A DNA stretch of 64,000 nucleotides, taken from positions 186,001-250,000 of the forward strand of contig KB445812.1 in assembly GCA_000320605.2 (NCBI GenBank), read 5' to 3'. The notes beneath the pieces are model-generated. The model did not search any database. It was not told where the DNA came from and worked only from the letters and a program-made list of their open reading frames with translations. A program made the translations under genes and the position numbers. This DNA is from Gelatoporia subvermispora B. Lineage: Eukaryota > Basidiomycota > Agaricomycetes > Polyporales > Gelatoporiaceae. Position 1 is the first letter of the stretch. Each line of letters begins with the position of its first letter. Positions 23,350-55,559 of this stretch are shown here, piece by piece.

Positions 23350-23751
23350 GAAATCAAATCACGTGAGCACGACTAGATATATCCGGACAGGCGCCGTTTC
23401 CCTGTGCCGAGAACAACTTCCCCCTTTGTGAAAGTTTGAACGCCGACGGCGAATCTGACTTGTCCTTCTTCAGGCAGGACGATCACCGCCCCCTTTCTCC
23501 TCCTTTGTCTTGAGATGATACTGGTTTATTAGCCGCGGCTTACGTTCTGCTCACGATGCTGCATGGCATTGACCGGGCTTGCAAGCAGTTGCAATGAGAA
23601 TCGATGGCTGACTAACTGCCGATCGAACGCCTCATTCTGCCTTTGGAAGTACGCACGACATCGTGGGGGCATTTCATGCTAGTCGGGCCGACACGACTGA
23701 GGTTCATCTACAACGCCGTACTCCTAGTAACCAACCAGTTTCTCGAGCACC

Positions 23752-24743
23752 ATGCCTGCTCTATCTATCGTCAAGGCCGCGAACGCGGCATTCTCTCCAT
23801 CCTATCTTCCCGTGGCGATATTCGTAGGCGGGACGTCGGGAATCGGGCAAGCCATGGCGGAGGCATTTGCTCGTTACACCAAGGGCAACGCACACATCAT
23901 CCTCTGCGGTCGCAACCGTGAGGCTGCAGAGAGGATCATCGCGACCTTCCCAAAACCGAGCATCTCTCAACCCGAAGCGCGTCATGAGTTCGTCGCCTGC
24001 GATGCCATGCTCATGCGGAACGTGCATACCACGACGTCTTCCCTTCTCGATCGCCTTCCCAAGGTGAACTTCCTCGTTCTATCTCCGGGGTTCTTCAATG
24101 TCACAGGCCGCGACGAGTCCTCGGAGGGAATCGACAAGAGGCTGGGGCTGCACTACTATACGCGGTGGAAGTTCACCTATGACCTCTTGCCTCTTCTGAA
24201 GAGAGCAAGGGATGCTGGAGAGGACGCAAAGATGATGACAATCCTCGGAGCGGGTGCTGGTGGAAAAATCGATCTCGACGATCTTAGTTTGAAGAAGCGT
24301 TACAACGTGGCTTCTGCAGGTCTATCAGGATGCACCTACAACGATCTGATGATCGAGGTATGTAGACCTTTGCGCTATTGTAGTGTCTCGCTAGAGATAA
24401 CATTGGGTGTTTTCAGTCGTTCGCCGAGAAAGAGCTGGGCATATCCTTCATCCACGCCGCCCCCGGCGTCGTTCGCACACCTCTCCTGCAGCCAGATAGC
24501 CTTGTGCTTCGTCCCGTAGTCGGAGCACTCATGTTGCTAATGTATCCGTTCACGTTATCCGCCGAGGATTGCGGCGAGTACATGCTGTGGGCGCTTCTCA
24601 ACAGCGGCTCAGGGGCGCAGCGCCGGGACAGCAAGGGTGACGACATTGGCAAGAAGAGGTACTACGGCTCGGAAGAAGCAAGGAGCCGCCTTTGGGAGCA
24701 CACAGTCGCGGAGATGAAAAGAGTTATCAGCGCGGACGCGTAA
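23752..24743 (+). CDS. SDR-family oxidoreductase-like protein, left-arm copy
   Basis: Two exons, 23752-24357 and 24417-24743, encode 310 residues. The N-terminal Rossmann motif reads FVGGTSGIGQAMAEAF, followed by IILCGRNREAAERII, an aspartate in FVACDAMLM, and NFLVLSPGFF at the NNAG position. The usual YxxxK pair is not evident: the segment around the intron reads YNVASAGLSGCTYNDLMIES, and related fungal SDR proteins also show a YNDLM-type sequence here. The C-terminal half has FIHAAPGVVRTPLL and a hydrophobic VGALMLLMYPF. Cofactor binding is likely, while classical dehydrogenase catalysis is uncertain. The protein is nearly identical in length and exon structure to the right-arm copy (53631-54622), differing at scattered positions such as NVTGRD against NFRGRD. 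Both copies look intact. Confidence 0.87.
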
Positions 24744-24789
24744 GGACTAAATACTCCCGGACAATATCGCCTCGTGTACAGTGTACCTA

Positions 24790-27700
24790 GAATGGTAATC
24801 AACAGTTTGGCTCGTAGCCTTTAGACTACGCGTCGCCGATATCGCTGATCTCATAACGGCTGCCCTGCTTCACACGGCCGATAGTCTAGATTAGTCCAGA
24901 CCTTAAAGTCCACAGTGAAGTCTCATCAAGGTAATCATATTACAACAATCTGTCGACAAGCTGAGACAGAGACCTACAGTACCCGGGAAACTACAATACA
25001 CGTTCAGATGACCAGCCTTAGGTGCGATGAGATAACATGGTAGGTGGCGGGGTTGTTTGTACCGATACAACAAGACATTGGAGGGGACGTGATGGATCAT
25101 GGAAGCGCTGACGGCCAAGTCCTTCGATATTCAAGCCTGCAGCCAGCAGCAGTACCAGCGTTGCTGACCGAAATAAGCGTAGAGAAGATGGGCGGGCAAC
25201 CAGGGACATCCGACAGGTACCTACCCGCTATGTCAGCATAAATGAGATAATCTATGAGAGGTCATAGAAGGCAGCTCACCGATGACGCGCTCATAGACAA
25301 CCTACAAAGCCGTCGTAAGCTTGATAGTGTAGACGGGGCCGGAGCCTTGCGGCGCCTTGTCTGCAACGTGATCGTCGGACGGTACAATGCCGTCGAAGAC
25401 ATACTCGCCACCGAGGCAGTCGACACGTCTCGGGTCATGCGACTTGCCCGCCGACTCGGGGTGGGCGCACCGACGGCGGCACACTGCCGCGACCTCGTCC
25501 GCCCTGCGCCCGCCCATCCGCCGGAGCGCACCAGGTGTCAGCTTGACTCGCACATGATCGGCGAGGCGGACGAAGACGTCGCCCAGGGTAACGTAGCTGA
25601 GGACCTCGGGACCCCACTGTGGTCCCTTGTCGTACGGCGTGACGACGACATACTGCTCCTCAGGGAGGGATGGGATGTAGAGACAAAATGTAGGGACTTC
25701 TGGGTTTGTTGCGGCAACGGAGAGTATGTCGAGGCTGAGCCCCTCGGGATCCTTGAAGCGCATGTCCCATTGGATACGCTGCTCCAAAGGGGTCGCAAGG
25801 ATCCTATTGATGCGATGGCGCGTCACCAAGGGCAGCTTGGGGAGTGGTGACAGGGGGCGAAATGCTAAATCTGGCAAGGAGTTGTCGCGGTCGGGAGGGG
25901 TGCCACGCTCTGGCGACGGGGACGCGGGGACCTTCTGCGGCGAGGACCAACTGGATGCCGACGCGCTGCTTGGTTGGTTGGGTAGCGACGAAGGAGGCGG
26001 TTTGCTGACAGTGTCGCGGGCGGTAGACCTGGCAAGAAGAGCACGGGTGGGAGGCGGCAAGACGGGTATTCCGGCGCTACGGCCTGATGATGTCGATGCA
26101 GCAGCAGGGGACTCTGGTCCATCTGGGTGCACAAAGCGCACATGTCTGGGGGGCATTATGTAGATGGAGATGGGGCGGGGACAGGAGCGAGAGCCTTGGT
26201 CATTTTATCTGCGTGTCCTGACACCTATATTCGGAGGACAACTATGCCCGCAATAGGATGATCCTGATTTCGGGATCTTGCCGTATCCGAGAGGATGGAG
26301 AGACACAGGCAGAATAGTGTCGAAAGACCAGCTTATGTAGAACCTGCCATAGATAGACGGTGATACCAGGAAAGCACTGTCATTTGTACGCGGACGGTGA
26401 TTCCCAGACCAGCGCAATGACCACGCAGCCTCCACCGGATCGCTCCGGGGTATAATATGGAAGGAAGACAAAAAGCTCTGCAGCGCACGGGACACTCGGC
26501 GCTGTGGAGACGCATCGAGCCCGATGCGAAGACATGCACCGCTGTGCTCGACCATAGAGCTAACAGGTTGCTCAGCACTGTAACATCCAGGCGGTGATAT
26601 ATGGATACTAGTAAAACCAGTGAATGGCGAGCGCTGCATGGCTGAGTAGACCTATACATCCAAGGAGCACAGTCGTTTGGATAGCCAGTTGCTCACTAAG
26701 CGCTGGATGCGGCATTGTCCTTTCTGCCGGAACTAGAGGCGGAGGATGACAAGGGCACGCAGAGAAGCTGATATTCGACCGACAGCTCTGGACTGGGTTG
26801 TCCCGCAGTGGACAATGATTATGAGTCATCAGTCAGTGATGGCAAGAGATAGTTGCCACAGATCAGAGGTGTTTGAAATTCGAGAGCACCAATTTTCAAG
26901 AAGTCGTTATGATACTGATGCTGCTTCCATCTCGGCGGCTGTTTCTTCAAAACAGAGCAAGCCAGGGACCAGACATATCCACCGGAAGGAATCTAGTCAT
27001 ACAGGCGCGCTGGATCAGACCGGCCTTCCGGCAGCTCTGTCTGCAATCAATGGCCCTACAGCTACTCACACGCCATAATATTCCAATCAAGTGGATGATG
27101 AAGGGAAGGCGAATGTTCGGTCATGACGCCCGTGATCGTCGCCTACCCCCATTCAGACTATGACGACGAGATATGTGTCTCTGCATAGCGAGATGTAGCA
27201 ATACTCACCATAAGCCACAAGAAGTGGTGCTCAAAGCACGCAACGTGTATCCGCCTTAGCGTCGAGTGTCCGACTGGAAGCGTTGATAAGGAATGCCTCG
27301 TAGATCGTGCAGGATCGGTGTGCAGAGTCCTCTTGATCCTGTAAGTGAGGATGGTGCGACCCGAGTCGGTCAAAGCCTAAGAGCCTGCATAGACCGACGA
27401 CCGACTTGATACAAGACACCAGAGCACATCCAACAAAAGGATATATACTAAAGCAGCTGATGGCAGTCCTGAGGGTAATTGACAGATTGCCATGAATGCC
27501 GCGCAAGGGGCGCTCCGCGCGTTGCTCAGCTTCGCTGTGCAAGTCAAATTCGCACAGCGCTTTGGCAGTGGCTGTCAAGTTAGTATCACGTGATCGGGAC
27601 GACTCGCGCGCTTCGCAACTTATCGCGACTTCACGGCGCACGCGGCTCGAGTCGCACGAGGAGACCTCGAGGGCTCCATGTATATGCTACGAACGCAGTC

Positions 27701-29350
27701 TCCAGTGGCCCTTCGCGCAGTATCATCTATGAACGCCGAAGCTTTGCAGCCTTTTTGACCATCTAAGGTTGGCGCAGACTTTCCAGAATCCGGATGTGGC
27801 AGATGACACGGGTCCGATGCGGAGGCAGTGATTTATCGTCAAAGTCTAAAGATGCAGGCCTGAGACTATGACCTCGGAAGAAGTGCGACAATGGATCTGG
27901 TAATGGGATCAGCTGTGAGTCCTTCAGCTGGGGCTTCTGTCACCAACTTGATTAATCAGGGTGAAAGCCATGGGAGCACCAATCCCTTTCAGTGGACAGT
28001 CTCGTTGCGTCCAGTAAACATTTACAGTCCGTGCCAGATGGATCCAGTATTGCGCGAAGTATCCTTTCCCACTCAGGCAGCTTCTCGATTCACTCCAATA
28101 AATAATGAGGAGCGACACGATGACTCAGGTCCACCACCGCCATTGGCCCATGCTCCTTCCACATTAGGAATACGGGCCCGGGGCAGGTCTCTCTCACATA
28201 ATCGATGGAGGCACGGTTCTGACGTTCATTTCCACGGCAACTAGCGTAAGTTTATCTGTGCCGATGTCAGTCTACAAGATATCTGCTGCGGCCCAAAAGA
28301 CTCATTCCAGTCCGACGATGACATGCCGGCATTCGGGATCGGAGCTGCTCTGTCACTCCCTAATACACGGATTCGGAGTATCCCTCTCTGGCTCTCTGGA
28401 GCTTTGGAATCCCGAAAATGGGGAGGTCGCTTTGCCCTCCGTTCTCTTGCCCTCCGTTTCTTTCTGCCCACTCGCCCGCAACGTTTCCGAAGGACGACGA
28501 TTCTAGCAGATAGCGTCGCAGGTTAGATCATCGTGACGCACTGCGCTGCTCCACGGCGGACTTCGTCCGATGGCCCGTGATCGTGAGGTTCACAGCCTGG
28601 TTTTCCCATGTCACCGCTGCATCGCGGGTTGTCCGCACACATTCAAAACGCCCTATCCAGCATGCGGTAGGACGTCTTGCTTTTGCTCCGTGCTTTCCGC
28701 TCGTCGTTAGTGAAGTACTGAAACTGCGCTCGCCGACGTCTCGGCAGTCCGAATGTCGCTCAGCAACCTCATGCCGGACTCCGGAGGACCCGACAATTTA
28801 ATTATGTGCAAAACCCTCAAAGAATTCTTCCGTATTCCCGATGACATTTGGATAGAGCACCGGGCACCCGCGTACTCGGACTATCTATCGAAGTTTGCAG
28901 ACAGTTCGGCGACTACAAGCAGCATCTTCTGAACTGCATCAGAGTGCGAACGCCCGGTAGGTAGTTCCAGCCGCGCCAAAATGCATGCGCAGGCGAGCCT
29001 GCAGATCTCGAAGGTTTCTGCGTGTGTTCTCCGCTGCCGACCGAGGGGTTCCAGCAAGATTGGCAGCTACTGTAATATCAGGCATCTTTATCTCAGAAGA
29101 CAAACTTCAGTAAGATGTCGAACATTGCGTGCCTAGCACTCCGCCGCCCATCGGGTGTGCTCGGCTTGGCGGCTACCAGCAGAGACTTCCGGGTACAGAA
29201 GGCGGACTGCCCAGATGATGCCGGCGGCTGCTGAGGCTCGTGTCTGGCATGTCCAGGCTGGCTAAGGGACCTCGAAGGTTCCCGCGCTCTACTGAGCTCC
29301 TACATTTCTCCGGAGATTCCCGTGAGCCCCCGGCGGATACTCCGATCTAA
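24790..29350 (+). repeat. Tandem unit L1 inside the left arm (first DUF6699 unit)
   Basis: This segment is a diverged direct copy of L2 (29390-33990). Matching anchors are 24800-24910 with 29393-29520 (3' flank of the DUF6699 gene), the two coding regions, 26635-26710 with 31260-31330, 27440-27560 with 32055-32150, and 28560-28640 with 33170-33245. It has no own counterpart in the right arm, which carries a single unit. L1 is more diverged from L2 than L2 is from the right arm, so it is probably the older or less conserved duplicate. Confidence 0.72.
25302..26156 (-). CDS. DUF6699-like protein, copy in unit L1
   Basis: A single-exon gene of 284 residues beginning MPPRHVRFVHPDGPESP. Residues 1-110 are Ser/Pro-rich and probably disordered. 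The conserved part, about residues 115-265, has INRILATPLEQRIQWDMRF, VLSYVTLGDVFVRLADHV, GALRRMGGRRADEVAAVC and DPRRVDCLGGEYVFDG. The pattern of a W-D block, a VTLGDV helix start, an Arg-rich helix and a (K/R)RVD(F/C)L block matches the basidiomycete DUF6699 family, whose function is unknown to me. Compared with the L2 and right-arm copies it keeps the same architecture with many substitutions. The frame is intact and the start context (cataatgcc on the plus strand) is clean. Confidence 0.8.
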   Translation of the reverse strand: MPPRHVRFVHPDGPESPAAASTSSGRSAGIPVLPPPTRALLARSTARDTVSKPPPSSLPNQPSSASASSWSSPQKVPASPSPERGTPPDRDNSLPDLAFRPLSPLPKLPLVTRHRINRILATPLEQRIQWDMRFKDPEGLSLDILSVAATNPEVPTFCLYIPSLPEEQYVVVTPYDKGPQWGPEVLSYVTLGDVFVRLADHVRVKLTPGALRRMGGRRADEVAAVCRRRCAHPESAGKSHDPRRVDCLGGEYVFDGIVPSDDHVADKAPQGSGPVYTIKLTTAL

Positions 29351-29389
29351 GAAGTACTTATGGGACTCGTGTAAGTGATGCAAATGGCA
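26157..29389. other. Non-coding remainder of unit L1
   Basis: The promoter side of the L1 DUF6699 gene and about 3 kb of further repeat DNA. Open frames are short or Arg/Ser-rich and are not conserved as frames in L2 or in the right arm, although the DNA is. A block at 27200-27560 is among the best conserved between the three units. No gene is supported. Confidence 0.5.
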
Positions 29390-29892
29390 ATCAACTGTCC
29401 GGCTCGCGGGCTTTAGACTGTTTACGCAGCGCCAATGCCGTTGATCTCATGACGCTTGCCATGCTTATCGCGTCGGCTTAGTACTGCCGAGATTAAGCCA
29501 GACCTGGATATTCACTGTGATGGTTCTTACGATAGAGTGCTACAACACATCAACAAGCTTGAAGACAGATCCTATGATACATGGAAAACTGCTACAATAC
29601 ACTCAAGAGGTATCTGTCGTAAATACCGATATTGGATGGTGGGGTGGGGGCACATAATGGGACACTTGACTGCGGTATATGGATATAATGAATAATGAGA
29701 CAGTGAGAACCAAATCCTTCAACTCTGCGCGACCCTGCGAATCTCCATAGCAGTGACTCCAACATTGCTAACAATGTGCAGATAAAACAACGGCTGACGG
29801 CTATGGACATCCGGGACACTTGTGACCGCTATGTCAGCACTTCTGAGACTGCCTCTGGCAAGATGTTGAGGGGCGGCTCACCAACAACATGC

Positions 29893-30756
29893 TCATCGAC
29901 GACCTTGACTCGCAGCTGGCGCCCTGAAGTTCACAGTGAAAACAGGTCCACTGTCTCTGGGAGCCCCACGCACGATGGCATCATCTGCCGGTTCGATGCC
30001 ATCAAAGATGTAGTGGTCCCCGAGGCAATCGACGCGACGCGGATCCTTCGGTTTGCCGGCGAGCTCAGGGTGGGCACACCGCTTCCTGCACGTAGCCGCG
30101 ACATCGTCGGCCTTGCGGCCACCCATGCGCCTGAGAGCACCGTCGGATAGCTGGACGCGCAGGTGGTCGAATAGACCAACGAACACGTCACCCAAAGTGA
30201 CATAGCCTAGGACCTTCTCTGCCCACCAAGGTTCCTTGTCGTACGGCTTCACTATCACGTACTGGACCTCGGGAAGTAACGGTATGTGGAGACAAAGGAC
30301 GTTTACGTCTGGATTGGTAGCGGCGACGGACAGGACAGCGTGACTGAGCTCTTCAGGCTCTTTGATACGGATATCCCATTCGACGCCTTCTTCCAGCGGA
30401 CTGATCAAGACCCTATTGATGGGCTGCACCCTCCCCTGAGGAAGCTCCTGGAGGTATGGGAGGGGAAGGGAGGCAAGTCTGGGTGAGGAATTATGGAGGT
30501 TGGGTGCAGTAGCGTAGCGCAGCGCGGGCGCCTGTTTCGGCGATGGATGGCCGAACGGCGATCCACTGTCAACAAGAGTGGAAGAGGATGCGGGAGAGGA
30601 ATAGTCGATGTCGTTGAACGTATCCGCTTCGTGAATGGCACTGCGCGCAGTGAAAGTCGGAATCGAGCTACCGCCAATGCGACTCGATGACGTTGAGGCA
30701 GTGGATGGGGAATCTGACCCTGCCGGCAAAACAAAGCGAACCTGTCTGCGAGCCAT
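29893..30756 (-). CDS. DUF6699-like protein, copy in unit L2
   Basis: Single-exon gene, 287 residues, starting MARRQVRFVLPAGSDSP. The N-terminal 110 residues are Ser/Pro-rich. The conserved domain at about residues 120-265 has INRVLISPLEEGVEWDIRI, VLGYVTLGDVFVGLFDHLRV, GALRRMGGRKADDVAATC and DPRRVDCLGDHYIFDG. It is the close partner of the right-arm copy at 51851-52708, with which it shares nearly all residues of the domain. A TATA-like element lies 66 bases upstream at the same distance in both. The family is DUF6699-like, of unknown function; being kept open in all copies suggests it is, or recently was, expressed. Confidence 0.83.
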   Translation of the reverse strand: MARRQVRFVLPAGSDSPSTASTSSSRIGGSSIPTFTARSAIHEADTFNDIDYSSPASSSTLVDSGSPFGHPSPKQAPALRYATAPNLHNSSPRLASLPLPYLQELPQGRVQPINRVLISPLEEGVEWDIRIKEPEELSHAVLSVAATNPDVNVLCLHIPLLPEVQYVIVKPYDKEPWWAEKVLGYVTLGDVFVGLFDHLRVQLSDGALRRMGGRKADDVAATCRKRCAHPELAGKPKDPRRVDCLGDHYIFDGIEPADDAIVRGAPRDSGPVFTVNFRAPAASQGRR

Positions 30757-30821
30757 GGTGAGGGGGGATGGTGGGGTGGTATGAGGTCAAGGACGTCGGC
30801 TATGCGCTTTCCCGCGCACCC

Positions 30822-30827
30822 TTATAA
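30822..30827 (-). promoter_or_regulatory. TATA-like element of the L2 DUF6699 gene
   Basis: TTTATAAG on the minus strand, 66 bases upstream of the ATG. The same element occurs at the same distance before the right-arm copy, which supports it as a promoter element. Confidence 0.55.
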
Positions 30828-30839
30828 ACGGAGATGAGG

Positions 30840-33800
30840 TGCGACTGATGTGCCGCAAGCTGGGCAATAAGAAGCTTCCGCATCAGGAAGGGTGTGGTGT
30901 CACCACAGAACGGCACAGTGAGCACAGACATCTGGCACGCGGAATACGCGGGAACAGCCAGAGGGGTCACGTTAGGACCTCATCCTGGGTATCAGTATTT
31001 GGAAAGTGTGAATTCTCCCGGGTACTGCTTGCTAAGACAGTGTCAACGTCACACTGTCTTTCGTCTGACCTAAATCGGAAAGGAACAGAGCCAAAAGATC
31101 AGAACAGCACAAAATCTACAGGGACGCCCGTCTTTGTGGAGAAGACACGGACCCGAGGACAGCAGTGCCACCCTAGGCTCGCAGAGGGTGGATTCCCTAG
31201 CGATGTGGCCGCGAGGCGGCGCAATACGTCTGCTGACAGTCCTGGCAGACGACGGGCACCGCATGGCTGGGTAGACCTGTGCGCACGGCGGAGCATAGGA
31301 GCCCAACCAGCCAGGGTGCTCACTGAGCACTGCACAGCTAGCTTCCATATTCTGGAAAGGAATCGACAGCCTTCCAGATAGTCTATCCATCTTCGACGTC
31401 TCCGAATCGGCTCATCTGTGTGGGCACACGGTCAAAGCTCATATATCAGTGGTCAGCACTTGATATAGTCAGAGTCTAACGATCTAAATGGAGCAAGAGT
31501 CATCGGAAGACGAGAGTCACAGACAAAGATTTATGCCGCGAGACCGTCGACGTTCATCTACGTGACGTTGCCTGCAGGAGTCTTTTACTGGCAATTTGGC
31601 AATGGCTACCAAGGTAAAATTGGCACAAAGGCAGAAAGGACCAATGCCCTTGATCCACACGCAAACAGATCTACCTAAAAGTCAAAGACCCAGCATCCAC
31701 ACCAAAAAAAACATCCGATCAAATGTATGACCCCGAGAGACAACTGATGATTCCTGGCGTCCGTGATCATCCGCCGAACCCCCAATTGGACTGAGACTAT
31801 GAACGGAAGTCTTGAGATAGCAAATTACGACAACACTCACCAACAGTCGCTAGAACTCATTTACCCAATGCATGAATTGCACCTTGATGGCTAGAGCCCG
31901 GCAGAAGGACCTGAAAAGGCATGCCTCGCAGCACTGGCGTGCTGAGTTCTCTTGATCTCGCGGTTCAGGTGGCACGACCCGACTCGGCCGAGGCCCGAGA
32001 GCAGACCGTGGGTCGGCTTGTAATCAGATCCCAGACCAAATCCGCCGGAAGATAAATACGAAAGCAGCTGATGGCAGTACTAAGGAAGACTGGCAGATTG
32101 CGATGACCTCAGCCGCGCGTTGCTCCGCTTCGCTGTGCAACGAGCCAGGTTCGCACAGCGTGAGTCTGCCAGTGGCTGCGATGCTCGTCACGTGACTTTG
32201 ACGCGTCTGTCAGCTGCACGTGTGCACGCGTCTCGTCGATCATTTATGCGCCACCATCGCGACCACACGTAGCTTGAGCCGCACGAGGAGACCTCGAGGC
32301 TTCATGTTCGTGCATCATATGAAGAAATTCTCCTTCAGCTCTTCGCTCGATCTGATCTGTGATTTCGGCCATCCGCAGCGTTCGTCGGCTATCTGTTCCA
32401 ACGGCTTGGTACATGCTGGTGTAGTCTTTTGCAATATCCCAAATGCGGAACCTAAGCTTCGTCGGATATACAGGGATAGTGTCCAGGATTGACTGATTAG
32501 ATCAATTATGGATCTAACTGTGAGCCGCTCTGCTGAGCCTACATCGAGCTGATCAGGGCAACGTCACCCCGTGGGAGCACACGCTCTTCCAGTGGAAAGT
32601 CTAGGGGGAAGTCAATGGAAAGTGTCAGATGTACCCACCAGACAGCCGGCGCTGTATGGGTGAATTCCGCTTTACGCGCAGGAGGCTTCTCCTCTACCGG
32701 AGTTCGTGCCCCTGCGTGATGGTCGCCGCATCTCAATCCGTTCCGACAATCCACGAGGAGCCGCGGGCGGGACGGGCTCCGCGACTATACCCATACCCCA
32801 TCTGGAATGCAAAGTAATGTCTATCGTCTCATGCGGGAGAAGCACAACTTCGACGTTCATTTCCCCGGCAGATAGTGCAGAGGGGCCTGTGCCGCTATGA
32901 AATTCCTCCTGCGTTACACGCGACTCCGCCCAGCCCGACGCGCCCGTGACATCGATCCTAATACCCAGATTCGGACTACCCCCGTCTGGCTGTGAGGCTC
33001 GGGGGCCCGGATGCTGGGGGATTTTGGGCCCTCTCTCTTGCCCTCTGCCCACTCTTCTACAGTCCCGGCCATAGCCACCCCGCGCGTGCATGGTCCACAG
33101 TGAACTGCACGCGATGGGCGACTAGCCAGTGTCGCGGATTAAGCCATTGTGGCGCCGACACACAGCGGACTGCCTCCGATGAGGTGCGATGATAAGGTTC
33201 GCGGCTTTGTTTCCCATGTCAAACCCGAGCGGTATCGCGGGCTACCTTCACCGACGTGTGGCGCTTGGCCAGGCATGCTGCCTGATGCCGCGCCTTATCT
33301 CCCTTCTCTCCGAACCCTGCGCTCATCATGGCCGACGCCGTGCTCACCGGCGCCTCGTGAATTTGAAGATGCCCTCGATTATTTTGCACACAATGGTTGA
33401 GCTTTGTACCGGAATTCCTGGTGAAAGTGATAGATGACGGGAAATCCACCATGCGACTGCGCAATATCGTACATCGAGCATCAGCCTTCCGCTCCACTCC
33501 GTTGCCCGACAGGGGGACTGCTCCCAGCACCTTCTGACCTTCCCAAGAGCGAAGTAGCTCGGGCGGCAACACCGAACACTTGGTATCTGCAGCTGCCTTT
33601 GCGGACGCAGTCACGGGTGTCTCAGGGTCTCGCGCGCATCCTCCGCAGCGCACCGAGGGTGCTGTCGGGCTCGGTGACTAACGAAAGGCACCTCCTTTCA
33701 CAGAAGACGCACGCCAGGGCAGTGGCGCCGAACGTCCGCTTCCGCACACTGGAGTCTGGCGAACGTCGAGGTTTCCTGCGCGTTACAAGCACCCCGGGCC

Positions 33801-36000: not shown

Positions 36001-36009
36001 TGAGTCCGG

Positions 36010-36362: not shown

Positions 36363-36378
36363 CTTCCCGCCCGGCCTA

Positions 36379-44085: not shown

Positions 44086-44130
44086 GCACCCGCCACCCGC
44101 CACCCGCCACCCGCCACCCACCATCCGCCG
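44086..44130 (+). repeat. Heptamer minisatellite, unit CACCCGC
   Basis: About five to six tandem units of CACCCGC with the last ones degenerate (cacccaccatccgcc). The matching place in D1 (near 36785) has only a single cacccgccgc, so the array expanded after the two repeats separated. Confidence 0.8.
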
Positions 44131-44139
44131 CGCATCAGG

Positions 44140-44330
44140 ATATATATGGTGGGGGAGCGCACCGTGTTTCGGGACGTCGCTCGACGCGCTCGTGCTCGCA
44201 GGACTTTTGGAAATGCTCCACAGCAACAGAGGCGCCGTCCCGCCATCCGCCGCGCATGAGGATATCTATGATGGGGGAGCGCACCGCGCTTCGGGACGGC
44301 ACCCGACGCGATCGTACTCGGAAGCCTGCA
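44140..44330 (+). repeat. Two-copy tandem repeat, period about 120 bp
   Basis: The block beginning gatatatatggtgggggagc (44137) recurs as gatatctatgatgggggagc (44260), each followed by gcaccg...ttcgggac. D1 has a single copy at 36806. Confidence 0.75.
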
Positions 44331-45583
44331 TACCGCTCCCCGCCCGCTCCCAAGTGAGCTGACTCGGGGTCTACTGTCCCAAGGCTCCTTTGCACGAGCA
44401 AGCATTTGATCTGCTTGCACCAGTTCATCCTAGTGCGGCCTGATTCTGCGACGGCGTAGGGACGGAACGCACTCCGCGGCTCCCTTTGACATCTCCCGCT
44501 TGTGCAGGTCACCTTGGAAGCAAGAAACGAGACCAAGTCCGGACTTGGATCCCATCAGCCTGTTTCGCAGGTGTCAGCGCTCCTGCAGGAGCCTGGAGGT
44601 GATGAGAGACGTCGCCGTCGTGAAGATCATACCGTAGCGGGGTGGCCTACTCGCCTTTCGTGGCATAATTGCGGTACAGACGCAAACCAGGTCCCACTAC
44701 TATCCGTGTCGGCCGCAGGAGACGATGAGAGACGTCGTGGAGATCGCGGCAGAGGCCGCAGAGCAGCCTGCTCGATTTTCTCAGCATGATTCTTGTGTCG
44801 CCAGCAGAAGGTGAGAGACACGGACATCACGGCGCAACAGCGAGCAGATGCTGAGTGCGATTCAATTTCACGAGCCTGAGCGAGGGCTTTGCGCGGTGGC
44901 GAAGAGTAGCCAATTGCTGCGCGATCATATGATCTCGCATCACGGTCACGTGTCGACTGAATTGTTTCGACGTCTGCCAACAATTTCGGGGGATCTTGTC
45001 TCTGCGTGCCGTTTCAGCTCCGCTGTTCGACGTTGCGAGGTCCTCTTTTCGGGCGCACACTGACGGAGTTCCGTGTGTCCATGGCGGCATCAGCTGCATG
45101 GTGATCATAATCATATGCCTGGATTAATCATTACAGTGGGGGAGTGCGTGCGTAAGCTCTTTACATGCGGTGGGATGATGATGTCGTGCGAGTACCGTAC
45201 AGAACCGAGAGAGACGTGATCGAAAGCGAAGAGGAACAACGATTTTGGGGGTTTATGCGGGGATATGGGTATTTCTAGAGTGGGATGGTGTATGCGTACA
45301 GGGAAATCTCGTGAGGCATCGTTGTTGCAGAGTCCGTCGTCGTCATAAGTCAGAGAGCCGAGGTCGTCAAGGGCGCCGAGCGCCAGGCCGGCGCCGCCGC
45401 ATTTGTGGAGCGGGCCGCCGTCGCTCGCGCCTCGGGAGTCGTGCATGGTCGAAAGGCGATGTTGACGATGCGCAAATACTGGGTCATGGATGGGAGGTCG
45501 AAGAGGGGCCGAAGATGATAATGATGATGTCGATGATTCGCAAATATTGGATAAGTCACGTCGTGCCACGTCCCCTTCATTCC

Positions 45584-46393
45584 TCACGCCATCGCGAGAT
45601 GCAGCACCCACACCTCCCCGAGACCCTTGCCCTTCATCACCGCGCCGCCCATCGCCATCGTGAGCCCTGCGAACCCGTTCGCGCCAACGAGGAAGTCGAC
45701 GCGCTTGATACCCTTGGCCGCCTCGCCGGGACCTGCCGCGGCACAGCGCCGGTGGAACGCGCCCTCGACGCGCGCACGGGCCTCGGGCGGGATGTGGAAC
45801 AGCTCCGTGGGGTTTACCGCGAGGCGCAGCACACTGTACACCGTGTGCAGGACATCACCGACGGTAACGCACGGCGCGCCGCGCTGTGCCCACGCTGCGC
45901 CGGGCGTCGGCGTGATGGTGATCGACCAGGGCAGGATGTCGCAGATCAGGGTGAGCGCGGGGAGTGGCGGGTGCGTCGCGGGCTCGGCGAGCGCGGCAGT
46001 GTCGAGCGGTGCGGGGTGTGCGCCCGACGTGCAGCGCAGCGCGGACTTGGGCGCACGCGTGAGGTCCCAGGCGAGGGCGGATGAGAAGCCTGGAGGCGGA
46101 GGCGCGAGGAGCGGGTGGATGCGGACCTGGCCTGCGACGTAGGGCGCAGCACCGAACGGCGGCGCTGGGGACGCGAGCTGGGCGGGTGAGAATGATTGGG
46201 CGGGTGAGAACTGCTTGAGGGGCGCGCCGTACGGGGAGTAGGGAGAGTATGGGAGGACGCCGGCGGGGAGCGGGTAGTGCTGGGGAGTGAGCGGGCCTGG
46301 AGACGAGAGTAGCGACGCGTTCGAGAACGTTGGGGAGGGCGTCGGGGGAATGCTGTCGTCCTCGAAGTGGACGCGCTTGGTCTTTGCGGGCAT
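45584..46393 (-). CDS. DUF6699 protein in the spacer
   Basis: Single-exon gene of 269 residues starting MPAKTKRVHFEDDSIPPTPS. Residues 15-110 are Ser/Pro-rich with repeated QFSPAQSFSPAQLASPAPP. The domain from about residue 120 to 260 is a clear DUF6699 match: WDLTRAPKSALR, LAEPATHPPLPALTLICDIL, PWSITITP, VTVGDVLHTVYSVLRL, ARARVEGAFHRRC and KRVDFLVGANGFAGL. It is the most family-like of the four DUF6699-like genes here and its codon use is strongly GC-rich. It lies in repeat D2 next to the right arm and is transcribed leftward. The role is unknown; the short (K/R)xVxF start it shares with the arm copies may be a binding motif, which is inference. Confidence 0.9.
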   Translation of the reverse strand: MPAKTKRVHFEDDSIPPTPSPTFSNASLLSSPGPLTPQHYPLPAGVLPYSPYSPYGAPLKQFSPAQSFSPAQLASPAPPFGAAPYVAGQVRIHPLLAPPPPGFSSALAWDLTRAPKSALRCTSGAHPAPLDTAALAEPATHPPLPALTLICDILPWSITITPTPGAAWAQRGAPCVTVGDVLHTVYSVLRLAVNPTELFHIPPEARARVEGAFHRRCAAAGPGEAAKGIKRVDFLVGANGFAGLTMAMGGAVMKGKGLGEVWVLHLAMA

Positions 46394-46919
46394 CGTGAGC
46401 GAGGAAATGTCGGGGCCAGTGGTGGTGGTTGAGGTGTTGGTTCAAGTTGTGTGAGCGTGGAGAGGTGTGTTCAAGGGCGGGTGAAGAGAGTTGCAACGTT
46501 GGGATGCGGGGGAAGCATGGAGGTGGTTATAAGAACGATCAGACAGCCCAGAGAGGCAGTTTTCGCGCGCAGCCTATAGTTGATAGATGTCAACAAAGTT
46601 AACAAAGTCGGTAGCGGGGGAGGAGCAAGCGACGTGGATCTGAAGCTGGACACAGCTTCGCAACAGGATATTGGCTCTGATTCACACTGCTCCCAGGCTC
46701 GGTCTGACTCGACATCGCGGTCATTCGCCCTGTCGCCGACAAAGCGAAGCTTGCGATTCGACAACAGCCCATGCTTGTCATGGGAAGTTTCTCCGAGAGG
46801 AACCCCTGCGCTCGCCCAACATGGCGGATTGGGGACATAAAGCGTATTAGCGCCTCCTTCCCTCCCCAGTCATCCCGCATCTGGATCTTCTACCGTCTCC
46901 TCACGATTAGATAATTCCA
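46394..46919. other. Promoter side of the spacer DUF6699 gene
   Basis: About 520 bases up to the right arm. The minus strand just upstream of the start is rich in short pyrimidine tracts (tcaaccaccaccactggc), as in many fungal promoters. No other gene is seen. Confidence 0.4.
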
Positions 46920-47299
46920 CCTGGCATCGCATTCGCACAGCTTGTATACGCCGCCCATGCCTCCATTTGGGCCCAATTCATCAATCGCGGCAGGTCTGCG
47001 CTCATCACGCTCGAGCCCAGGCAACCAAGGCACGTCCCAGTCGCTCACAGAGCGCAGACAGATTCCGCGCATTGTCGTTGCTACCCCGCACTGCACATCT
47101 CGCTGCCAACGGCGACGGGACAATACACTCCCCGTGAGTATCAGTTGCCTTGTCGCGCGCCATCTATCTTTGACGAGCTGCTTGATTGGCCTCGTGCGGG
47201 CTTCCAGGTGCGTGCTGACGGGGGCCCACCACGTTTTTGACGATCGCCCACATTCGTGCAGGTGGAGCGTCATAGACGCGTCTGTGTTTGTTTGCACGG

Positions 47300-50200
47300 C
47301 CGGACTCAGCCCACTTCCGCAGCATTTTCGCGCACCAGCTCGTCAGTATCACAGGGCCGTCCGCACGTTGCCATGTGTCCAACAGCGCGTGGTGGACGGA
47401 ACCATGCCAAGTGCAGTTGCGGTCGCGCGAACGAGCCCACAGAGAAGATCTGGCCCCGCCCCGTCCACAGAACGCGTCCGCAGCCGCAGCCGCGCGGGGA
47501 AGCGGGGAAGCTCGTGATTTCATCTACCACCCGCTGCGCCCCCAAGCACTGCCGCCGCGCTTTCCCCGTACGTGCTCCGCGGGGCCGCGATGGAGGCCAC
47601 CTTCTGCGACCGCCTTCTACTACCACAAGTGGCACGTAATGTGGCGGCTGGCGGCTCTCGCTCTACAGCGCCCGCGTCCTTGGGAGGTCGACCGGATCTC
47701 GCCTCGACCGTATTGCTGTGCCTGGCAAGCTCTTCCTTTCCGCTGGCCCGCTCTCGTTCTGCGTAGAATGTGACCTCACAGTGCCTTCCCGTCCAACAGT
47801 ACACCTTCTGTGTGGTCCCGCTCTCGTCCGGTTTCACAAACTATAAACTGTGGTTCCTGCGCCCGCGGCCCGCCTGAAACGGGGCGTGTTTTCAACGCAC
47901 GAGCGCACCTTCCGCTTTCGCGCAAGCCACCCCTCCCCCCAATTCATATTGGCCTCTTTTGGGGCTAGCACCCTGTTGGATTCCTGCCGTTCCTGGCGCG
48001 GGTTGAGGGCCGCTTGCAGCTGTGTAGCACCTGTAAGCTGTCATAATCGGGACAGTTGCCTATGCAAGATCGTCTTCGCGCTAGCGACGGTGGGCGTCCG
48101 AACTTCATCTGGCAGCGCACCTCCCATCCGCAGCGATCTTCTCCGGCGGGTTATCCGACCCGCCCTGGACCTGCGTTACCAGCTGCGTTCTCGGGTTCGC
48201 GGACTACGGAGGGATCATGTACCTGAATGCGTTTGCATTTCCTTGCTTCTGTACTCCCCTCTAATTGTCAGCTGCATCTATCAAGGGTCCCGCGCGACGG
48301 GCAGCAACTCGCCATTCGAGCAGTTCGCTCCGTGTAGTCTATGTCAGATGGGCGATGGGCGATGGGGATAGACGGCACCCCGCCCGCTCGCCCGCATACG
48401 ATGTGGCTGACGAACAGACTTGCGAATGGGGGCAATGGCGAGGGGCGGAGCGCGCCGAGCGTCTGATGACCGGAAGCTTCGACGCTGCACCTCGGGATCT
48501 CTCCGTAGCGGGGCGGTAGGATCAGCGGGGCGCGATTGGGGCAATGTGCGTAAGACAGAATCCTATCACCCCCTCGCCCATGTGCTCACGAATCGACACC
48601 CAGGTTTTGGTCACCGCGGACAGCGGGGCGCGTCGCGCAGCAGTATCAACGTAGGTGTGCATATGCTGCGCGCGGGGCGTGCCGGGTATCCTCCGAGCTG
48701 CGCAGACGGGGGGGGCACCGGGTGCATGTCGCGCGACCAACAAGCCTAGAAGCGACAGTTGAGAGAACACGGTGCCCCGCCGGCTGCGTCACGGGAATTT
48801 GCGGCCCGGGGGGCTGGTAACGCGCCGGAGCTCTCGACCTTCGCCAGTCCCCCCCGGACGTGCGGACGCGGCGGTCTGGCGCCATCGCCCTGACATACGC
48901 CTCCTGCCAAAGGGGGCGCCTTCTGGTAGTCACCGAACCCGACAGCACGCTTGGCGCGCTGCGGAGTACGCCTGCGAAACCCTGCGAGGCACCCGCGAAG
49001 AAGTGCGGAAAAGTAAATGCAAATGTCGAACGTTTGCTGCTGCCGCGCTCTTGGGACGGTCAGAAGTTGCTCGGAGCGGTGCCTCCTGCTGAGCAACGAA
49101 ATCGAGGGAAGGCTGATGTTCGATGTGCGATAGTTCGGAGTCGCATGGTGTCATGCCCATCATTTATCAGTTTTATCAAGCATTTCTGTGCGAAGTTTTA
49201 CCATTGTGTGCGAAATTGCTGAGCGCATTTTCGGATTTTTGAAGCGCCGGCGAGCGCTGCGTCGGTCACGATGAGTACATGTTTCAGAGGGAAGAGAGAA
49301 GGCGGAGCACCACACGGCATGTCTGACCAAGCGCCATGCGTCGGCGAGCGTCCCCCGCGATACCGCTGAAGCTTGACATGGGAAACGAAGCCGCGAACCT
49401 CGCTATCGCGCCTCATCGGAGGCAGTCTGCTGTGGTCGGCGCCACAATAGCTTATTCCACAACACTAGCGACTATCGTAGTCGTTCATCGGATGCACTTC
49501 ACGGCGGACTATGCACGCGCGGGATCACACTAGACGGGAACGCGGAAAACTGGGCAGAGGGCAAGAGAGAAGTCACAAAACCCCCCAGCATCAGAGTGTC
49601 CGAGCCTCACGGCCAAATAGGGATAGTCCGAATCTGGCCATTAGGAAGGATGTCACCAGCGCGTCGGACTGTGCGGAGTCGCGCGCACCGCAGGAGGAAT
49701 TTCATAGCGGCACAGGCACCTCTACACTACCTGCCGGGGAAATGAACGTCGTATTTCAGCTTCTGCATGAGATGATAGACATTACTTCGCATGCCAGATA
49801 TGGACTGAGTGTAGTCGCGGGCCTCGTCCCGTCCGCGGCCCCCCATGAAGTGAATTGTCGGAGCCACTTGGGATGCGGCGTGATCACTCAGGGGCACGAG
49901 CTCCTCCGGTGAATAAGAAGCTTCTTTCGCGTAATACGAGGCCCACACATTTAGCGCCGGATGTCTGTTGGGCGCATGAAATTCCATTGACTTTCCCCCT
50001 AGACTTTCCACTGAAAGAAGTCTGTGCTCCCACGCACTGATGTTGCCCTGATCAGCTCGAGGTAGGCTCGTCTAATTTCATGATTAGTGCTACAATCAAA
50101 TTAATCACTTGTTCCAAGATATCTGACCCACGGAGCTTAGTGACGTCCCGCGAATGGGATACTGCGAAAGACTCGGACTGCCAGCATGTACCAAGCCGTT

Positions 50201-51780
50201 GGAACCGATAGCCGACGAACGCCACGGGTTTCCGGGACTCGCAGATCAGATTGAGCGCAAAAAAAACCACAGGAGAATACGTTCTTATGATGCACGAACA
50301 TAAAGCCTCGAGGTCCCCTTGTGCGACTCAAGCCTCAAGCTGCGTGTGGTCGCGATGGTGGCGCACAAGTGATCGATGATCAATGATCGGCGATGCGTGC
50401 ACGTGCAGCCGCCGGACGCGTGAGAGTCACCTGACGTCTTTCGCAGCCACCGCTAAATGCTGTACGAACTTTTTTGACTTGCACAGTGAAGCTGAGCAAC
50501 GTGCGCCAACGGTCATCGCAATCTATCAGTCCTCAGTTTTGCCATTAACTGCTTTTATATATACATCCTTCGGTGGATTTGCTCTGGTAGCTGGTATCAA
50601 GGCGGTCTTCGGTCTGGTCTCGGGCCTCAGCCAAGTCGGGTGGTGCCATCTTATTCCTGATCCGCGGGATCAAGAGAACTGAACACGCCAGTCCTGCGGG
50701 ACATGCCTTATCAATATCTCCTGCAGGACCTGGGGCATCAAAGCACATGCACGACCCATGCATTAGGGCATGCATTCTAGCAATTTTTGGTGAGTGTTGC
50801 TATACTTTGTTATGAGAACATGTCTACATCATTGCAATCCAACCGGGGGTCGGCGAATGATCACGGGCGTTAAGAATCATCACTTCTGTTTCTCGATCAT
50901 GCCAGCTGATCGGAGGTTTTGTGGCATGGATGTTAGGTCTTTGACTTTTTGGGGGATCCGTTGGTCTGTGGGATTGGTCCTTTATGCCAGTTTTGCTCTG
51001 ATAGCCTCTGCCACTGAGAGACTTCTCCCAGGAATGGTGTCACACAGATGCACGCCGAGATCTGTGTGACATAGACCGTGGTCCGTGAATGTTCCATTCT
51101 GGAAGCTTGATATCTCCTGTTACGTTAGTCTCTTGCTAGTCGAGGCAGGTGTAGTCGTTGATAACTGAGCTCTAATCGTGTGTTCTGATGGGCACGGATC
51201 GACTCAGAGACGTTGCAAACAGTTGGCCTATTTGAGACGGTGTCGAATCCATTTTGGGATATGGAGGCTAGCTATGCAACCAGTGCTGACCGAGCATCCT
51301 AGCTTGTTAGACTCCTATGTTCCGCCGCGCGCATAGGATTATCCTGCCATGCGGTGTCTGTCGCCTGTTAGGTCTACTAGTGTATGTTCTGCTCCGTCTT
51401 GAGGGCACATCGCTCAGGTTTTCACCTTCTACGAGCGCAGGATGACATGACCATCCATGGCTCCGTTGCATCTCCACAAAGACGAGCATCCCTGTGAACC
51501 TTTGTGCTGTTGTGTCTCTCTGTTGCTCCGAGCTTTCCACTTTGAGCCAGAACATGGGCAGTCTGGCATTGACACAGCATTAGCAACCAGCGCCGGGAGA
51601 ACTCCCACTTTCAAATACTGATACCCAGGATGAGGTTCCAGCGTGACCTCTCTGGCTGTTCCTGCATATTCCGAGTGCCAGATGTCTGTGCTCGTGGTGC
51701 CGTCCTTTGGGGACTCCACATCCTTCCTGATGCGGAAGCTTCTTATTGCCCAGGCTGCGACACACCAGTCGCACCTGGTC
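47300..51780. other. Right-arm DNA without a supported gene
   Basis: Shared with 30840-36000 in inverted order. Open frames are numerous but not conserved between arms. A block at 50480-50800 carries a TATA-like tttatatata and a donor-like ggtgagtgttg that are partly kept in the other units. No gene is called. Confidence 0.5.
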
Positions 51781-51784
51781 TCTG

Positions 51785-51790
51785 TTATAA
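51785..51790 (+). promoter_or_regulatory. TATA-like element of the right-arm DUF6699 gene
   Basis: TTATAAGG, 66 bases upstream of the ATG at 51851, at the same spacing as in the L2 copy. Confidence 0.55.
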
Positions 51791-51850
51791 GGGTGCGCAG
51801 GGGACCGCATAGCCGATGTCTTTTGACCTCATAACACACCTGCCCTCACC

Positions 51851-52708
51851 ATGGCTCGCAGACAGGTTCGCTTTGTTTTGCCGTCGGGGTCAGGTTCCCC
51901 CTCCACTGCCTCAACCTCATCGGGTCGCAGTGGCGGTAGCTCGATTCCGGCTTTCACTGCTCGCAGTGCCCTCCACAAAGCGAATACGTTCAACGACATC
52001 GACAATTTCTCTCCCGCATCCTCTTCCGCTCTAGCTGACATTGGATCGCCATTCGGCTATCCATCGCCGAAACAGGCGCCCGCGCTGCGCTACGCTACTG
52101 CACCCGACCTCCATAATTCCTCACCCAGACTTGCCTCCCTTCCCCTCCCACACCTCCAGGATCTTCCTCAGGGGACGGTGCAGCCCATCAATAGGGTCTT
52201 GATCAGTCCGCTGGAAGAAGGCGTCGAATGGGATATCCGTATCAAAGAGCCTGAAGAGCTCAGTCACGCTGTCCTGTCTGTTGCCGCTACCAATCCCGAC
52301 GTAAAGGTCCTTTGTCTCTATGTATCTCTACTTCCCGAGGTCCAATACGTGATAGTGAAGCCTTACGACAAGAAACCTTGGTGGGCAGAGAAGGTCCTAG
52401 GCTACGTCACTTTGGGTGACGTGTTTGTTGGTCTATTCGACCACCTGCGCGTCCAGCTATCCGACGGCGCTCTCAGGCGCATGGGTGGCCGCGAGGCCGA
52501 CGAGGCCGCGGTTACGTGTAGGAAGCGGTGTGCCCACCCTGACCTCGCCGGCAAACCGAAGGATCCGCGTCGCGTCGATTGCCTCGGGGACCGCTACATC
52601 TTTGATGGCATCGAACCGGCCGATGATGTCATCGTGCGTGGGGCTCCCAGAGAGAGTGGACCTGTTTTCATTGTGAACTTCACGGCGCCAGCCCAAGGTC
52701 ATCGATGA
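51851..52708 (+). CDS. DUF6699-like protein, right-arm copy
   Basis: Single-exon gene, 285 residues, starting MARRQVRFVLPSGSGSP. The N-terminal region is Ser/Pro-rich. The domain has INRVLISPLEEGVEWDIRI, VLGYVTLGDVFVGLFDHLRV, GALRRMGGREADEAAVTC and DPRRVDCLGDRYIFDG. It differs from the L2 copy by scattered, mostly conservative changes (for example KVLCLYVSLL against NVLCLHIPLL) and short length changes near the ends, with no frameshift. Purely neutral drift would have been expected to break one copy, so both may be under selection or recently converted. Function is unknown. Confidence 0.83.
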   Translation: MARRQVRFVLPSGSGSPSTASTSSGRSGGSSIPAFTARSALHKANTFNDIDNFSPASSSALADIGSPFGYPSPKQAPALRYATAPDLHNSSPRLASLPLPHLQDLPQGTVQPINRVLISPLEEGVEWDIRIKEPEELSHAVLSVAATNPDVKVLCLYVSLLPEVQYVIVKPYDKKPWWAEKVLGYVTLGDVFVGLFDHLRVQLSDGALRRMGGREADEAAVTCRKRCAHPDLAGKPKDPRRVDCLGDRYIFDGIEPADDVIVRGAPRESGPVFIVNFTAPAQGHR

Positions 52709-53630
52709 GCCTGTTGTTGGTGAGCCGCCCCTCAACATCTTGTCATTGGCAATCTCAGAAATGCTAACATAGCGGTCACTAGTCTCCCGGCTGTCCATAG
52801 CCGTCAGCCGTTGTTTTATCTGCTCATTACCAGCAATTTCGGGGTCACTGTTAGGGAGATTCGCAGAATCGCGCAGAGTTGAAGGATTGTACTTTCACTA
52901 GAGCTTATTTGCTGGCACCTAGGTGAGCGATTTTCTGAACCCCAAGCGCGCCACCTCCCGCACTTTTGCTGAGAGACAAGTGGAGCTCAATTGGTAATTC
53001 AGAACTGGCACCTAGGTGCCAGCAAATGACCTCTACTATCTCATTGTTCATTATATTCATACACCGCAATCAAGTGTCTCACTATGTGCCACCGCCTCAT
53101 CATCCGATATCAGTATCTACGACAGATCTCTCTCGAGTGTATTGTAGTAGCTTTCCATGTATCATAGGATCCATCTCCGAGCTTGTTGACGTGTTGTTGT
53201 AGCACTCTATCGTAAGAACCGTCACAGTGAATATGCAGGTCTCGCTTAATCTCGGCGGTATTAATCGCGATAAGCTAAGCGTCATGAGATCAGCGGCATT
53301 GACACTGCGTAAATAGTCTGAAGGCCGCGAGCCCCATGGGTGCTAGTTCTTAGATCGGGGAGATTTCGATACCCTTTTGCTCATCCGCCCAGGGCGATTT
53401 TGTTGCGCTCAGGTCGGTTACGTGAACGCATGCTGTGCGGTTGCAGCACACTCGCAGTCGATCACGCTACGCCACTATGGAAGAGGGAGCTCCGACGGAC
53501 TCCGCCTATGCGTGATTTTGTGCTTAATGCGCCTATCAATTTTAATCTAGTTGTACACCTCTGTACACATGGCACCCACTGAAAATCTGTGCAAACTTGT
53601 GCAGATCATAGTCCGGGAGTATTGCAGTCC
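52709..53630. other. 3' flank of the right-arm DUF6699 gene and junction with the SDR gene
   Basis: Matches 29340-29890 in inverted order up to about 53380. The stretch 53380-53630 then leads into the SDR 3' end. A short direct repeat, ggcacctaggtg, occurs at 52914 and 53007. No gene is present. Confidence 0.5.
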
Positions 53631-54622
53631 TTATGCGTCCTCGCCGATGACTCTTTCCATCTCTGCGAACGTGTGCTCCCAAAGGCGGCTCCTTGCTTCT
53701 TCCGAGCCGTAGTACCTCTTCTTGCCAATGTCGTCACCCTTGCTGTCCCGACGCTGCGCCCCTGGGCCGCTGTTGAGAAGCGCCCACAGCATGTACTCGC
53801 CGCAATCCTCGGCGGACGTTGTGAACGGGTACATGAGCAACATGAGCCCCCCAACTATGGGACGAAGCACATGGTTGTTCGATGTCAGGATAGACGTGCG
53901 AACGGCGCCGGGGCCGGCATGGATGAAGGATATGTTTGGCTCTTTCTCGGCGAACGACTGCAAGCACGGAGTGTTAGCTCTGGTGGGACACCAAAATACT
54001 GCGAAGATCTACGCACCTCGATCATCAGATCGTTGTAGGTGGGTCCTGATAGACCTGCAGAAGCCACGTTGTAACGCTTCTTCAATCCAAGATCGTTGAG
54101 ATCGATCTTTCCACCAGCACCCGCTCCAAGAATTGTCAGCATCTTCGCGTCCTCTCCAGCATCCTTTGCTCCCTTCAAAAGAGGCAGGAGGTCGTAGGTA
54201 AACTTCCACCGGGCATAGTAATGCAGCCCAAGTCTCCTGTCGATTCCCTCCGAGGACTCGTCGCGGCCTCTGAAATTGAAGAACCCCGGAGATAGAACGA
54301 GGAAGTTGACCTTGGGGAGGCGATCGAGAAGGGAAGACGTCGTGGTGTGCACGTTCCGCATGAGCATGGCATCGCAGGCGACGAACTCGTGACGCGCTTC
54401 GGGTTGAGAAGTGCTCGGTTTTGGGAAGGTCGCGATGATCCTCTCTGCAGCCTCGCGATTGCGACCACAAAGGATGATGTGTGCGTTGCCCTTGGTGTAA
54501 CGAGCGAACGCCTCCGCCATGGCTTGCCCAATTCCCGACGTCCCGCCTACGAAGATTGCCACGGGAAGGTAGGACGGACAGAATGCCGCGTTCGCGGCCT
54601 TAACGATAGATAGAGCGGGCAT
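53631..54622 (-). CDS. SDR-family oxidoreductase-like protein, right-arm copy
   Basis: Two exons, 54622-54017 and 53957-53631, encode 310 residues with the same intron position as the left copy. Shared landmarks are FVGGTSGIGQAMAEAF, HIILCGRNREAAERI, VACDAMLMRNVHTTTSSLLD, NFLVLSPGFF and YNVASAGLSGPTYNDLMIES. The YxxxK pair of classical SDRs is again not evident. The intron differs clearly from that of the left copy while the exons differ little, which argues for selection on the protein. An NAD(P)-binding reductase-like role is likely; the substrate is unknown. Confidence 0.87.
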
Positions 54623-55559
54623 GATGTTCGAGGGATTGGTTGGTCACTAGAAGTATGTTTTGGGAGTGAACCCAGGGTTGGGCCTGCCCGACAAGCATGG
54701 AATGTCCCTATGATGCCGCGCGTGCCTCCCGAGACAGAATGAGGCGTTCGTCCGGCAGTTAGTCAGCCTTTGGTTCTCATCACAATTGCAAAACCCGGCC
54801 AAATGCATGCAGGGCTGTGTGCGGAATTCAAGCTGCAGCTAATGATTCAGTGATAGAACAAAGACAAACGGTGTGGTGATCGTCTTTCCTGAGTGATTCC
54901 AGTCAAATTCGCCGTCGGCGTGCGCGCAGAGCCATGTTGTTCGCAGCACAGTGCAGGGCGCCCGTCCGGATATATTGTATCTAGTAATGATCACGTGGTT
55001 GTGTACCCGTCGGCAAGCCCTCAATTGGGCCATCCCATCATGTAACCTCTCGAGACTGGGCTGAGATATAACGCCTCCTTCTCTAAAGTGCTGGGCTCGT
55101 CATGGTCGTTGCAATAGGACTTATGATATGAGTATAACCGTACGGCTTCAATCAGAATCGGAGTTCATCCGGTGGCGAAAACATACGAGGACCATCATCA
55201 ACACGTCAGGACTCGGTGAGTTAGCAAAATAAGTAGAATCTCTCATCGATTCGACGGAGAAGCTCTGAGCCTTGCCCAGAGTATTACCTATGTCTGTGCT
55301 GTCGAAGTACATGGGCCAAGACCATGTCAGCAACCCAGGCCCGTCATCGTAATGAAACCAGCTGTGATACCGAAAAACGCGACACAGCTGCTCCGCCATG
55401 CTTCTGACGTTCCCAGTGTCCTGCGATCTGCATTCTGTGAAATGATCTGATGGACCTCGTGGTGTTGAGCATTACTTGAAGTCCGAAAAGGCTCCACTGA
55501 TATTCTGTGTTCTCCAGTCAGGCGGGGACTCAAGTACTCAATCTCGAAGGTAGTGAGAA

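Follow-up and report, generated by a model that had tools for sequence, protein, structure and literature searches.

A diverged inverted duplication with a short near-identical tract in a fungal contig

Do two blocks of genes that lie in mirror order on one contig of a fungal genome still exchange sequence with each other? The stretch of DNA that we analyzed (the window) is 64,000 nucleotides long and comprises positions 186001–250000 of contig C22, from a genome of 37.7 Mb in 52 contigs. A preliminary description of the window had proposed an inverted duplication with a spacer of about 10.5 kb, and self-BLAST confirmed this, with a spacer of 10.56 kb (Table 1). We think that the arms probably arose by an old, local, inverted segmental duplication, followed by patchy and partly recent gene conversion between them. 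We infer both the local origin and the role of conversion from the sequences.

Extent and gene content of the arms

The arms align in mirror order across 7,858 columns, of which 6,438 (81.9%) are identical in a piecewise global alignment. By block, identity is 81.1% (outer), 80.3% (middle), and 87.3% (inner), which includes short stretches near 23.3 and 31.5 kb that align badly (41–55% in windows of 100 columns). Self-BLAST gave seven collinear inverted matches, with best E-values of 0.0. The homology ends at 36363/46923 on the inner side. The arm coordinates that were first proposed were nearly right, but the arms extend outward by another ~350 bp, to 23003/55345, and a comparison of 18000–23700 to 54600–60000 found no similarity beyond these edges. 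We reject a recent palindrome, as the arms are too divergent. Rather, we have two homologous multi-gene segments in opposite orientations on one chromosome, which is what defines an inverted segmental duplication.

Table 1. Features of the duplicated region, in window coordinates.
Feature	Position	Strand	Comment
Left arm of inverted duplication	23003..36363	+	self-BLAST, outer-edge search, genome search
Right arm of inverted duplication	46923..55345	-	self-BLAST, outer-edge search, genome search
Inverted match 1	23003-23183/55345-55165	inverted	80.5%, self-BLAST
Inverted match 2	23559-24768/54812-53604	inverted	87.5%, self-BLAST
Inverted match 3	29401-29707/53333-53031	inverted	84.9%, self-BLAST
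Inverted match 4	29713-31381/52888-51228	inverted	86.3%, self-BLAST
Inverted match 5	31664-33944/50962-48658	inverted	74.9%, self-BLAST
Inverted match 6	34694-36300/48637-47008	inverted	85.5%, self-BLAST
Inverted match 7	36298-36363/46988-46923	inverted	89.4%, self-BLAST
Short-chain dehydrogenase (SDR) gene, left	23752..24743	+	310 codons, one 59-bp intron; our gene model
Short-chain dehydrogenase (SDR) gene, right	53631..54622	-	310 codons, one 59-bp intron; our gene model
Extra unit U1 (D1 and flanking DNA)	24768..29401	-	left arm only; older tandem copy of U2
DUF6699 gene D1	25302-26204	-	left arm, in U1; over Pfam cutoff
DUF6699 gene D2	29893..30786	-	left arm; PF20415 3.8e-15
DUF6699 gene D3	45584..46441	-	spacer, distant paralog; PF20415 1.6e-29
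DUF6699 gene D4	51827..52708	+	right arm; PF20415 8.7e-14
Inner G+C-rich block, left	34694..36363	+	apparently non-coding; 85.5% to 47008-48637
Inner G+C-rich block, right	46923..48637	-	apparently non-coding; self-BLAST
Near-identical tract, left	35916..36294	+	candidate gene-conversion tract; 376/379 columns identical
Near-identical tract, right	47015..47393	-	counterpart of 35916-36294
Spacer	36364..46922		10,559 bp, between arms
Direct repeat B1	36380..37516	+	~17 bp inside left arm's inner edge; 70-79% to B2
Direct repeat B2	43701..45045	+	in spacer; 70-79% to B1
Amino-acid permease gene with flanks	40122..43361	+	in spacer; AA_permease_2 3.5e-18 for ORF 40542-41048

The mirror order that had been claimed for the genes (SDR gene, DUF6699 unit, GC-rich DNA) holds in both arms. 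Each arm has an SDR gene at its outer end, and with the intron spliced out, neither copy has a stop in its 310 codons. Their first-exon ORFs match adh_short from Pfam (7.9e-08 for the left copy and 5.9e-08 for the right copy). The spliced models are 90.0% identical at the amino acid level, with dN = 0.052, dS = 0.256, and dN/dS = 0.20. A protein search of the genome with the SDR first exon found two copies and no third among the best candidates.

D2 and D4 are the corresponding DUF6699 genes of the two arms. Their amino acid identity is 88.1% over aligned codons (dS = 0.105, dN = 0.055, dN/dS = 0.52), and neither contains stop codons. D1 is an older relative, with 52% amino acid identity to D2 and saturated synonymous divergence (dS = 2.3), and D3 is more distant (26–29%). 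We detected 14 matches to DUF6699 in the genome, and seven of these are on C22, including four within the window. In a BLASTP comparison, the three DUF6699 genes of the units, together with a gene at C22:111078 (45–47% amino acid identity), stand apart from the other DUF6699 genes. A literature search for DUF6699 found no papers.

The order is SDR–U1–U2–inner block in the left arm and SDR'–U'–inner block' in the right arm. Most of the extra length of the left arm comes from the tandem DUF6699 unit U1, of about 4.6 kb, which is found only there and to which no separate unit of the right arm corresponds. Collinear matches between U1 and U2 (24809/29401, 25371/29980, 27309/31928, 27639/32266, 28359/32957, and 28552/33161) have a period of about 4.6 kb. 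Because the synonymous sites of D1 and D2 are saturated, the tandem duplication predates the inverted duplication. And since D1/D2 are older than the arms, we slightly favor the view that the right arm lost U1, rather than that the left arm gained it; loss is simpler but unproven. A clean fusion of U1 and U2 would not explain the shorter right arm, as 270 bp at 53333–53604 match nothing in U1.

In a three-way alignment of the units, scored in windows of 100 columns, U' is nearer to U2 than to U1, except in two windows near 27.4–27.6 kb. In these, U'/U1 identity is 0.77 and 0.77 versus 0.72 and 0.75, and U1/U2 identity is 0.85 in one of them. The exception could reflect constraint or an old exchange between the units.

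Each of the genes D1, D2, and D4 has, about 1 kb upstream, a non-coding stretch (27300–27576, 31927–32189, and 50433–50698) that is ~68–88% alike in pairwise comparisons across the three units, despite the saturated synonymous sites of D1/D2. In this stretch, U1 is about as near to the other units as those are to each other, possibly because of shared regulatory DNA or an old exchange. A DNA search of the genome with a non-coding stretch of the unit found no copies outside this part of C22 among the best candidates.

We rejected the idea that the non-coding part of the units contains a coding gene: there are just short matches, in several frames and on both strands, and the best U1/U3 match spans 98 residues at 39% (E = 7e-10). 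Also, the resemblance of ORF 33678–34265 to C2-set_2 (Pfam E = 0.003, 18.0 bits versus a cutoff of 21) was taken as chance.

Uneven divergence and the near-identical tract

The divergence between the arms is uneven. First, dS is 0.256 for the SDR pair versus 0.105 for D2/D4 (P = 0.0009, Fisher test on rounded counts), and codon bias could be part of the reason for the low value in DUF6699. Second, identity in the non-coding DNA next to D2 is 86% and falls to 65% at ~31047 (P = 4e-10; the segment limits for these Fisher tests were chosen after the identity profile was viewed, and the P values are descriptive). Non-coding 31061–33950 is 74.7% identical between the arms. RIP-like mutation is not supported as the cause of this: the observed/expected ratio of CpG is 1.01 and 1.02 in the arms. 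Between the arms, 266 of the 913 transitions are at CpG, and there are 507 transversions.

The inner block had been described as near-identical. Overall, it is just 85.5% identical by self-BLAST, and the near-identity is limited to 379 bp, which have 3 differences (99.2% identity) inside a block that is 87.3% identical in the global alignment; 171 consecutive columns are identical. Identity across the block climbs from 76% to 84% to 92%, reaches 376/379, and is then 59/69 in the last stretch. Comparing the tract to neighboring segments gave P = 3e-06, 8e-07, and 1e-18 (Fisher tests, again descriptive). We shuffled the inner block 2,000 times and never obtained a tract of 379 bp; with 3 differences, the longest was 177. 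This test scans for the longest tract, rather than using limits picked post hoc, and it treats sites as independent.

If the tract were a functional DNA element (regulatory, or an unrecognized RNA or coding exon) under near-absolute constraint, then conversion would be unneeded. The tract was indeed kept in both arms while the neighboring DNA diverged; a genome search with 35540–36380 found no further copies of the inner end beyond the two arms among the best candidates scored; and ORF 35967–36305, which lies over the tract, has a weak, below-cutoff match to SCA7 from Pfam (E = 0.042, 14.2 bits versus a cutoff of 23). However, folding both strands gave no stability beyond that of shuffled sequences (z = 0.54 and -0.59), no Rfam families were found in the whole window at the gathering thresholds, and none of the five ORFs tested that overlap the left inner block have a Pfam domain over the cutoff. 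Furthermore, 171 identical consecutive columns are not expected from codon-level constraint alone, and the stepwise decay of identity on one side (0.99, 0.92, 0.84, 0.76) is what repeated conversion could leave. We consider such a constrained element to be unlikely.

Under the explanation that we prefer, an old duplication followed by conversion, a block with the SDR gene, the DUF6699 unit(s), and G+C-rich non-coding DNA would have been duplicated locally, and inverted, long ago. Synonymous and non-coding divergence is about 0.25–0.3, and both SDR and both DUF6699 copies are retained as open genes. Afterwards, the arms would have drifted by substitutions and indels, with occasional mutual repair via ectopic gene conversion. 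This would have produced the observed mosaic, in which the patch that surrounds the DUF6699 gene (about 29.4–31.05 kb) is moderately young and a second patch, the 379 bp near the inner end, is very young.

At 75–87% identity, the arms are presumably too diverged, for the most part, for easy recombination, and the 379-bp tract is the sole near-identity that would permit inversion of the spacer. We predict that crossovers in this tract could flip the spacer, by analogy to the flip/flop region of Saccharomyces chromosome XIV. That the tract still recombines actively as an inverted repeat, with ongoing exchange both keeping its identity and flipping the 10.7-kb spacer with its permease and DUF6699 genes, seems doubtful to us.

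Assembly, copy number, and the spacer

Divergent alleles are possible in fungal dikaryons, and two such alleles might have been joined head to head during assembly, or the consensus might have been falsely homogenized. But both arms lie inside a single contig of 565,781 bp, with the nearest contig end about 209 kb away, and they are separated by a 10.6-kb unrelated spacer, which matches neither arm at E = 0.01. Moreover, the outer flanks have no detected similarity, the left arm has the extra 4.6-kb unit, a third copy of the SDR gene was not found among the best candidates in the genome, and there are three arm-specific differences within the 379-bp tract itself. The earlier argument against a simple assembly artefact holds up, given the differing flanks and the 18% divergence of the arms, and we consider an artefact to be quite improbable.

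The arms or the B repeats could also be parts of a dispersed element that caused the duplication via transposition or recombination. There is indeed a B copy where the left arm ends on the inner side, another within the spacer, and a fragment of ~80 bp beyond the right arm. But a dispersed mobile repeat is unlikely, as neither the arms nor the SDR gene nor the B repeats were found outside this part of C22 (among the best candidates). Specifically, the search with 23350–36362 from the left arm listed the right arm as the sole copy (best one of two candidates), and the search with B2 gave itself, B1 (in two pieces), a piece of 79 bp beyond the right arm, and nothing else among the best candidates scored. 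Neither these searches nor the one with the inner end found dispersed copies among the best candidates. (The genome search scores the best candidates only, so the copy counts are lower bounds.) Also, none of the 20 ORFs tested had a transposase-like match in Pfam. We give a mobile origin very little credence.

That the locus is a regional centromere, of the type described for Candida tropicalis in which homogenized inverted repeats flank a core, is scarcely credible: inverted repeats do surround a core of ~10 kb and the inner tract is homogenized, but there are genes in both the core and the arms (permease, DUF6699, and SDR), much of the inner part is G+C-rich (0.58–0.65), and the arm, inner-end, and B searches found nothing on other contigs among the best candidates, while similar repeats on several chromosomes are typical of such centromeres, if not always required.

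Within the region, G+C content is 0.58–0.65 at 33–39 kb and 43–49 kb and 0.53–0.56 in between. The permease gene of the spacer has a second copy in the same orientation about 60 kb further along the contig (C22:289797–293008; 85.6% identity over 3.26 kb) and a relative on contig C15 (65–96% amino acid identity for the best-frame pieces). Outside the right arm, at 55576–55830 and 59547–59778, the B2 region and adjoining DNA recur as degraded pieces, inverted and in order, with ~3.7 kb between them, which hints at a further, older inverted duplication.

We compared 224 kb of C22 (the window plus 160 kb of the same contig) and kept matches of at least 70 bp, dropping the shorter ones. Just 8 of the 34 matches were inverted, of which six were the arms and the other two were of 124 and 102 bp, and the arms were the only large inverted pair. 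An additional inverted match of 235 bp between the spacer and the right flank (43464–43693/59775–59547) was seen with self-BLAST and is absent from this comparison. Because C22 has several direct duplications besides the large inverted pair, we view it as duplication-prone.

Elsewhere in the window, there is a possible kinase gene at 11810–13010 on the minus strand, with weak matches, below the cutoff, to both a kinase domain and the MLKL N-terminal domain (E = 0.006 and 0.019). ORF 5215–5847 on the minus strand, which by eye we take to resemble the start of an HMG box, has no match in Pfam. We rejected the labeling of ORFs at 58918–60430 as metacaspase, with no Pfam match in three ORFs. Beyond the window, C22:351136–360000 (165136–174000 in window coordinates) contains at least three direct repeats of ~1.8 kb each, with 80–82% identity.

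Known inverted repeats and implications

Large palindromes outside the subtelomeres, mating-type loci, and resistance amplifications had been called unusual for fungal chromosomes. Outside the subtelomeres, they are not unheard of: Saccharomyces chromosome XIV is described as having, close to its centromere, a 24-kb region between two 4.2-kb inverted repeats (PMC9731477). As at our locus, gene-bearing inverted repeats flank a gene-containing spacer, and the proposed mechanism there is conversion between the inverted copies that occasionally resolves as a spacer-flipping crossover (PMC9731477). The Saccharomyces repeats are homogenized, for which gene conversion was proposed, and in this respect the likeness here lies in the 379-bp tract. 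In contrast, those repeats are described as almost identical across their full length, whereas here only the 379 bp are near-identical and the rest is at 75–87%; also, both orientations are documented there among strains and species (PMC9731477). The mating-type inversion of Hansenula/Ogataea polymorpha, as described, has a similar invertible-segment geometry, between two related loci, but that region contains MAT genes and inverts upon nutrient limitation (PMC4238957), while we saw no MAT gene among the spacer frames that we scanned.

Like inverted segmental duplications generally, this one has local, low-copy, gene-bearing, and divergent mirror copies; unlike them, it has patchy recent homogenization near the inner end. 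Among the titles and the starts of abstracts in the literature matches listed, we did not find such a case in mushroom-forming fungi, which does not prove that there is none. The DUF6699 genes and the style of the introns suggest that our genome belongs to such a fungus.

For the most part, we view this locus as a product of ordinary genome evolution; the one twist, which can be tested, is a tract that seems to have been freshly copied between the arms. It also marks an expansion of the DUF6699 family, with half of the detected matches on one contig. As a record from a single locus, it illustrates how mirror-image gene copies can continue to exchange sequence in a fungus. If the spacer is polymorphic, then the 379 bp are the predicted site of crossover. 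And if the tract is actively recombining, this filamentous (and probably mushroom-forming) fungus would have a naturally occurring flip/flop polymorphism, and the neighborhood of the spacer's genes would change with it.
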